Shown: positions 14,986-19,194 of the stretch, piece after piece | Position numbering within the stretch: the first letter of the stretch is position 1 | Layout of the letters: every line of letters starts with the position of its first letter | Assembly: GCA_902602765.1 (NCBI GenBank) | Contig: CACKSH010000002.1 | Span: 117,420-181,419, forward strand | Direction: 5' to 3' | Source: Paracoccaceae bacterium | Lineage (GTDB): Bacteria > Pseudomonadota > Alphaproteobacteria > Rhodobacterales > Rhodobacteraceae | DNA length: 64,000 nt | Notes under the pieces: generated by a model | The model's database searches: none | The model's input: the letters and a program-made list of their open reading frames with translations, nothing else | What the model was told of the DNA's origin: nothing | Translations under genes and position numbers: made by a program

Positions 14986-15636
14986 ATGGAAAAACTTCTT
15001 ATTGGCATTCTTGCCATGGCGTCAGTAGTAGTTGCGTCAAACATTCTAGTACAATTCTTATTGCTAGATGGCCTTCTTACCTGGGGCGCATTTACTTATC
15101 CCATCGCATTCTTAATTACCGATCTGATGAACAAAAGTTATGGCCCCACCGCAGCTCGGAAAATAGTGCTGGCAGGATTTATCACAGGCATCTTATGTTC
15201 TTTTGTTGGAAGCAAAATTATGCTACAAGGTGATGGCTATGAATATCCAGCTGTAGCATTAAGAGTAGCATTTGCATCAGGCCTTGCTTTTATTATAGCG
15301 CAACTTTTTGATATAGCTGTTTTCAATAAATTGCGCTCAGCTGAATGGTGGAAGGCGCCTCTCGCATCAACGTTGCTGGCATCTTTAATCGATACTGCTA
15401 TTTTTTTTACGATTGCATTTTCAGCACAGATAACATTCTTTTCTGAAGCCGCAAATAATGAGGTTTCATGGTCATGGGAAATAGTTCCCTTTTTAACCTT
15501 TGGTGCTGATGCGCCACTGTGGGTATCACTTGCTGTAGCAGATTTAATGGTGAAATGGTTAATTGGATTAGCGGCATTAATCCCCTTTCGAATTTTTGTT
15601 TCATTTTTTTTATCGCGAGACAATAAAACATCTTGA
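14986..15636 (+). CDS. yhhQ: Queuosine precursor transporter (YhhQ/VUT-1 family)
   Basis: YPIAFLITDLMNKSYGPTAARKIVLAGF motif typical of the family. Confidence 0.92.
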   Translation: MEKLLIGILAMASVVVASNILVQFLLLDGLLTWGAFTYPIAFLITDLMNKSYGPTAARKIVLAGFITGILCSFVGSKIMLQGDGYEYPAVALRVAFASGLAFIIAQLFDIAVFNKLRSAEWWKAPLASTLLASLIDTAIFFTIAFSAQITFFSEAANNEVSWSWEIVPFLTFGADAPLWVSLAVADLMVKWLIGLAALIPFRIFVSFFLSRDNKTS

Positions 15637-15696
15637 AAAATTTTCATTCTATGACACCATATGTTTTAGAGTTAACAAACGAAAGGAGGTGGTCCA

Positions 15697-15753
15697 GTGT
15701 CTAAAAAGGTATTGGAGAGAGGTGTCGGAACAGTTAGGGGTAGTCGCATCTAG
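15697..15753 (+). CDS. Mini-ORF (18 aa, MSKKVLERGVGTVRGSRI)
   Basis: GTG start 7 nt after GGAGG within a very extended SD; ends TAG. Below ORF-track cut-off. Confidence 0.5.
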   Translation: MSKKVLERGVGTVRGSRI

Positions 15754-15820
15754 GGCAGTCCTGAAATGCAAAACTTTTAATTGGTGAGCCACCTAACCGG
15801 CCCACCTCCGAAAATCTTGG

Positions 15821-15847
15821 AAGGCCGCTCAGACTGAGCGGCCTTTT
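15821..15847 (+). terminator. Intrinsic terminator
   Basis: AAGGCCGCTC-AGACT-GAGCGGCCTTTTC. Confidence 0.85.
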
Positions 15848-15889: not shown

Positions 15890-16324
15890 ATGCTAAAAAT
15901 TAACGAACAAATAACTTTACAGAGTTGGGAATTAAGCGAACAGTTTATTAGAGCTTCCGGGCCTGGAGGCCAACACGTTAATAAAACAAGCAGTGCAGTA
16001 GAATTGAGATTTGAAGCCGGAAAATCACCATCATTGTCCGACCCTGTAAAAAAAAGGCTAAAAATAATCGCTGGAAGTAGATGGACAAAAGATGGTGCCA
16101 TTGTGCTCAAGTGCGATGATACAAGACACCAAGTACGTAATCGCGAGATTGTACTTAAACGCTTGAAGGATATGATTAGAAAATCTTTACTCAAACCTAA
16201 AAGCAGGGTGCCTACTCGGCCAACTTTAGCCAGTAATAGAAAACGCCTTTCTGAAAAGAAAAATCGAGCTGGATTGAAATCTAATCGAGCCAGAATTTCT
16301 ACAAAAGATCTTTCTTTTGATTAG
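15890..16324 (+). CDS. arfB: Alternative ribosome-rescue factor / peptidyl-tRNA hydrolase ArfB
   Basis: RASGPGGQHVNKTSSAVELRF GGQ motif and basic C-terminal tail. Confidence 0.95.
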   Translation: MLKINEQITLQSWELSEQFIRASGPGGQHVNKTSSAVELRFEAGKSPSLSDPVKKRLKIIAGSRWTKDGAIVLKCDDTRHQVRNREIVLKRLKDMIRKSLLKPKSRVPTRPTLASNRKRLSEKKNRAGLKSNRARISTKDLSFD

Positions 16325-18972: not shown

Positions 18973-19068
18973 TACCAGTTCCTATGCATAACGATGGTGT
19001 AAACGTTGGTTGGCCATTCCTCAAGTCAATTCCTCTTGATCATTACCAAATCTGTATATACTAAGAAA

Positions 19069-19150
19069 GTACCTCGGGGTGCCTAAGGCTGAGACATGTT
19101 AATGAACCCGTAGAACCTGAACCGGTTAGAACCGGCGGAGGGAAGGTCTG
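19069..19150 (+). ncRNA. TPP riboswitch (thi-box)
   Basis: CCTCGGGGTGCC...GGCTGAGA...ACCCGTAGAACCTGAACCGGTTAGAACCGGCGGAGGGAAGGT matches THI-element core motifs, upstream of thiBPQ. Confidence 0.95.
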
Positions 19151-19194
19151 GGCAATGTCCTAAACCACTCTCCGCTAGCATAAGGAGAGAAAAA

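Follow-up and report, generated by a model that had tools for sequence, protein, structure and literature searches.

What does the gap between yhhQ and arfB encode? In the 64,000-nucleotide stretch of DNA that we analyzed (the window), a yhhQ-type transporter gene (14986..15636, forward strand; Pfam Vut_1) is followed on the same strand by arfB (15890..16324; Pfam RF-1 domain), and the space between them holds a compact element that a preliminary description, made from sequence alone, took for a novel ribosome-interacting RNA and possibly a leader of arfB. We conclude, at a probability of roughly 80%, that it is a stand-alone, ribosome-capturing small mRNA, probably an orthologue of rreR in the rreB/CC2171 family. 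This reading is based directly on the sequence, its conservation, selection on frame and stop, a predicted stem, a promoter-like element and a class-wide distribution. The element is real and well conserved, yet it belongs to an already described alphaproteobacterial family.

An extended Shine-Dalgarno sequence facing the 16S 3′ end

The extended Shine-Dalgarno sequence (SD), GAAAGGAGGTGGTCC, occupies positions 15681-15695 of the forward strand, inside a 5′ block, AACAAACGAAAGGAGGTGGTCCA (15674..15696), that sequence comparison shows to be constant across Alphaproteobacteria. Its GGAGG ends at 15689 and is separated by a 7-nt spacer from a GTG at 15697, which opens an 18-codon mini-ORF of the rreR type, MSKKVLERGVGTVRGSRI (15697..15753, forward strand; codons 15697-15750, TAG at 15751-15753). 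On the same strand, 45 nt past the stop lies an anti-SD mimic, GGCCCACCTCC (15799-15809), in which 10 of 11 positions pair with the SD, and then a GC-rich, intrinsic-terminator-like hairpin with a short T run (about 15821-15847), which a strict consensus scanner did not call at the locus. The layout first proposed, of SD, GTG-started mini-ORF, anti-SD mimic and terminator, is in place down to its coordinates.

The 16S 3′ end was read from three congeners, the source MAG being incomplete and without a 16S end. Their 16S sequences match the query (1-78) at 100% and end in GGATCACCTCCTTTC, which complements the extended SD exactly, save for one G-U. The congener sequences thereby confirm the claimed pairing over 15 positions (14 Watson-Crick and one G-U), and the duplex has a predicted energy of −27.4 kcal/mol, compared with −8.7 for plain GGAGG. 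Complementarity extends for 2 nt more (AG), reaching into the start codon; GAAAGGAGGTGGTCCAG and CTGGATCACCTCCTTTC face each other over 17 contiguous paired positions including one G-U, a length that agrees with the at least 16-17 nt over which the SD of rreR, preceding a short ORF, reportedly complements the 16S 3′ end. The ribosome interaction originally suggested is probable.

The motif goes beyond chance. The 1.85-Mb genome has a single copy of GAAAGGAGGTGRTCC, and the fuller pattern AAAGGAGGTGRTCNNRTGTC matched 44 of 240 alphaproteobacterial genomes, with no match for its reversed control. Searched alone across 198 genomes of the order, the SD 15-mer matched 147, some of these matches being the 16S antisense strand; that strand also matches GAAAGGAGGTGATCC, and such matches were filtered out. 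Among the named genomes with the fuller pattern are Bradyrhizobium, Methylobacterium, Bosea, Mesorhizobium, Sphingomonas, Novosphingobium, Paracoccus and Ruegeria. By blastn, homologues of the element were present in 28 of the 61 genomes searched, and comparison of relatives, which the preliminary description had proposed, found both mini-ORF and stem to be conserved among Rhodobacteraceae-type elements. The conservation counts below refer to 89 non-redundant Rhodobacteraceae-type elements, and the counts of synteny to 79 such loci and 48 loci elsewhere.

A reading frame of fixed length

The mini-ORF has exactly 18 codons in 87 of the 89 elements, the length reportedly found for rreR in this family, and GTG is the start codon in 87 of 89. 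Codon 19 is a stop throughout the 18-codon set. Over all 89 elements the stops are divided among TAG (37), TGA (33) and TAA (19), and TGG is absent from the stop position (0/89; Fisher p = 3e-11, uncorrected for phylogeny). Because A or G is free at both of these stop positions, TGG should be common; the interchange of three stop codons without it therefore places the ORF under selection for translation, and we regard this as strong evidence from evolution for translation of the frame. Ribosome profiling in Caulobacter found two earlier-predicted ncRNAs to be translated (PMC4117421).

Selection on the peptide itself is less clear. Across the 89 elements, codons 6-12 are conserved (LExxVGT) and codons 13-18 are variable. 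The core is LE(R/K)xVGT, and the peptide is thus not simply Arg/Gly-rich, as had been claimed; the accompanying idea that the mini-ORF matters by being translated is borne out by the fixed length and stop and by the variable C-terminal third. One could argue from the retained core and the fixed frame that the 18-residue peptide is the functional product. We consider this unlikely: the last six residues vary freely, the core codons also fall within predicted helices, the same 5′ block precedes unrelated peptides, mostly of 14-30 residues, in other orders, and the 18-aa protein of Dinoroseobacter shibae is described as unstructured (PMC7217052). Fixed length, a variable C-terminal third and unrelated peptides elsewhere point instead to selection on translation and length, which is therefore, as judged from sequence, clearer than selection on any one peptide.

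Predicted fold, promoter and neighborhood

The fold energy of the RNA has a z of −4.7 relative to shuffles, and in the minimum-free-energy fold the SD (15685-15692) is paired with positions 15802-15809 of the anti-SD mimic. The individual pairs are retained in 85-89 of the 89 Rhodobacteraceae-type sequences, so that the conserved stem holds in at least 85 of 89 relatives, and almost every member has kept a CCTCC-type anti-SD. Complementarity to the SD also exceeds that of shuffles, with a mean z of −1.6 in Rhodobacteraceae and −0.9 elsewhere. Because the SD side is invariant, the stem shows no true two-sided covariation. One-sided changes are pairing-compatible in 66 cases and incompatible in 15 and mostly follow transition bias; the wobble-compatible changes are also common transitions. 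The consensus fold further contains a hairpin in the start region and a GTGTCGG helix.

The arrangement differs in other orders. There, in both the CC2171 model and the sequences, the ORF start pairs with the stretch preceding the terminator, indicating that the closing stem has moved. CC2171-type members (loci L062, L064, L069, L183 and L247) often carry a CGCCTCC anti-SD-like stretch within the ORF, so that masking of the SD may come from another place. Members from the Sphingomonadales (L185, L186, L205, L217, L234 and others) make up a subfamily of their own, whose ORF is fixed at 18 codons (MSHGS...) and in which, by eye, a CATGGTTCAGC/GCTGACCATG stem replaces the SD/anti-SD stem.

The most economical account of these features is as follows. 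A small mRNA of about 170-180 nt would be transcribed between yhhQ and arfB from a promoter of its own, ending at its own terminator. In the free RNA, pairing with the 3′ anti-SD would mask the SD, and a small hairpin would contain the start region. The 15-17-nt SD near the 5′ end would capture 30S subunits very tightly, and the 18-codon ORF would be translated from its GTG. The RNA would thus be either folded or ribosome-bound, and ribosome binding and translation would most likely set its own output and lifetime. The predicted energies favor the ribosome-bound state: opening the folded SD costs 12.1 kcal/mol, which, set against a 16S pairing of about −27 kcal/mol, means that 30S should outcompete the internal stem. 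We infer that the source organism transcribes this RNA and that 30S capture and a coupling of stability to the ribosome would operate there.

Modeling a 30S subunit on the SD leaves the predicted terminator hairpin unchanged, its arm fully paired either way, and places most of the anti-SD in pairs with another part of the RNA. The latter prediction bears on whether the mimic could be a trans-acting seed that binds SDs in other mRNAs and becomes accessible only once a ribosome sits on the RNA's own SD. In favor of such a seed are the CCTCC-type anti-SD kept by nearly all Rhodobacteraceae-type members and the use of CCUCC-type loops by other alphaproteobacterial sRNAs. It is nevertheless distinctly unlikely, since the anti-SD is predicted to be paired elsewhere once the SD is covered, and outside Rhodobacteraceae the SD complement is weaker and differently placed. 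We give little credence to a ribosome sponge, the other option of the preliminary description, that is, an abundant RNA that titrates free 30S and thereby sets or senses translation capacity. Although the predicted 15-bp pairing far exceeds an ordinary SD and the extended SD is retained across many orders, a sponge would need an abundance near that of the 30S pool, its SD is predicted to be masked by the anti-SD stem, and a fixed reading frame and stop would be unnecessary for it. Highly speculatively, the rreB/rreR/CC2171 RNA might be a class-wide sensor of free 30S or of 16S 3′-end integrity; the SD/anti-SD stem would then open only under a surplus of intact 30S tails, a mechanism that we hold to be equally conjectural, and the fate of the RNA would report this to the cell.

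Upstream of the SD, TTGAC is found at a distance of 47-50 nt in 62 of the 89 Rhodobacteraceae-type elements, whereas, after mono-shuffling of the upstream sequences, an average of 6.3 of 89 contain it at any position. This conservation points to a promoter of the element's own. In the window the corresponding TTGAAA lies at −48 from the SD (15633-15638) and overlaps the yhhQ stop codon; with a tentative −10-like CACCAT (15655-15660), read by eye and not called in the window by the consensus scanner, it delimits a putative forward-strand promoter at 15633..15660.

Synteny with the flanking genes is frequent, though not constant, among Rhodobacteraceae-type loci and absent elsewhere. Among the 79 Rhodobacteraceae-type loci, yhhQ is adjacent in 73 and arfB lies downstream in 65 (60 with both genes, 13 with yhhQ only, 5 with arfB only and 1 with neither), and neither gene is found beside the element in any of 48 loci from other alphaproteobacteria. 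The idea of an arfB attenuator or leader, in which read-through of the terminator into arfB by RNA polymerase depends on whether a ribosome occupies the mini-ORF, draws on this linkage and on the start of arfB 42 nt beyond the terminator in the window, but is unlikely, with at best a slim chance, because arfB is missing from 14 of the 79 Rhodobacteraceae-type loci and from all 48 elsewhere, the element has its own promoter-like sequence, the terminator arm is predicted to be paired with or without 30S on the SD, and a search by fold prediction for mutually exclusive terminator and antiterminator folds found no antiterminator alternative. Given the close spacing, there may be some read-through effect on arfB here. 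At one locus (L006, G012:C61) the downstream arfB match stops at +529 and the aligned part is 57% identical, in contrast to its congeners; this arfB is possibly frameshifted or decayed. Elsewhere in the window, at 19065-19160, a TPP riboswitch (65.8 bits, above its gathering score) lies directly upstream of a gene pair for a periplasmic binding protein and a permease, probably for thiamine transport.

Family membership and known systems

A permissive Rfam scan places RF01867 (CC2171, a Caulobacter sRNA) on 15673-15845, covering model positions 1-159 with 44 bits (E 2.2e-8 to 2.9e-8). This falls below the gathering score of 75 bits, and scans at gathering thresholds gave no match at the locus or at 19 homologous loci. 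The element resembles CC2171 in its 5′ block (CAACAA..GAAAGGAGGTGATCCAGTGTCT), its terminator and a match over the full length of the model; it differs in its sub-threshold score and in its middle, the alignment being confined to the 5′ block and the terminator. The stems differ as well, with CC2171 joining the ORF start to the pre-terminator stretch and the element joining SD to anti-SD. Of 289 genomes from the class, 68 have RF01867 matches, and the score in Methylobacterium isbiliense (L183) is 99 bits. The Bradyrhizobium relatives combine the same 5′ block and a 14-codon GTG-started ORF with an RF01867 match (59 bits at locus L258). Some genomes (G048, G498, G506 and others) have two or three matches, which may mean that certain lineages hold several copies of the family, although weaker second copies may be chance. 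In a MAG labelled Gemmatimonadota (CP070812.1, 5051-5070; L216), the alphaproteobacterial 5′ block precedes an ORF of 21 codons, which may reflect mis-binning, transfer or a wider distribution. Weak Rfam matches to proV and RNAI, under their cut-offs, were set aside.

Other short alphaproteobacterial RNAs are less similar. Like the element, rnTrpL/peTrpL of Sinorhizobium meliloti is a short translated leader-type RNA, possibly of dual function, but it is tied to attenuation of the trp operon, and its 14-aa ORF is described as leaderless (PMC10117765), hence without an extended SD. We rejected S. meliloti SEP1 (23 aa) as a relative, since its reported acidic pI of 4.18 (PMC10117765) does not suit the 23-residue relatives. 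The literature on Ruegeria, Paracoccus and Caulobacter sRNAs yielded no named counterpart, and the permissive Rfam scan of the element gave no match to an anti-SD (CCUCC-loop) sRNA family. Such sRNAs, of which the CcsR/cuckoo RNAs are examples, share the CCUCC-type motif; the element differs from them in masking the motif with its own SD and in having a conserved ORF.

The closest counterpart is a small mRNA that Hahn et al. 2017 (RNA Biol 14:1353-1363) reportedly described as having a "unique, extended Shine-Dalgarno sequence". Their rreB, in Bradyrhizobium, is said to encode 14 residues behind a 17-nt SD, and rreR 18 aa in the Rhodobacter/Roseobacter lineage; rreB reportedly co-sediments with 30S and depends on ribosomes for its stability, tight 30S capture setting both translation and lifetime. 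The element shares with these RNAs, as reported, an SD of 15-17 nt able to pair with the 16S 3′ end, a GTG start, 18 codons in Rhodobacteraceae and 14 in Bradyrhizobium, and the form of a small monocistronic RNA with a terminator. To our knowledge, the RF01867 match, the SD/anti-SD stem and the promoter-like element, both conserved in Rhodobacteraceae, the yhhQ-arfB synteny and the relatives in Sphingomonadales and other orders go beyond what has been reported for rreR and rreB. We take the element to be rreR-like, a name that follows the reported anatomy, with published protein sizes as indirect support. PMC7217052 (Table 1) lists a 14-aa protein of B. japonicum (1.6 kDa) and an 18-aa protein of D. 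shibae (1.9 kDa), both unstructured, and cites Hahn et al. 2017. Our calculated masses, 1.56-1.62 kDa for Bradyrhizobium 14-mers and 1.96 kDa for the 18-mer of one Dinoroseobacter MAG, are close to the sizes in that table. The match to RF01867 and the fit to the published rreB/rreR small mRNA thus overturn the claim of novelty. Rather, the "non-coding" CC2171 of Rfam, the published extended-SD small mRNAs and the elements found from Sphingomonas to Methylobacterium are joined as one probable family. In its Rhodobacteraceae-type members, the conserved stem of SD and anti-SD and the promoter-like element offer targets for mutation in culturable strains.
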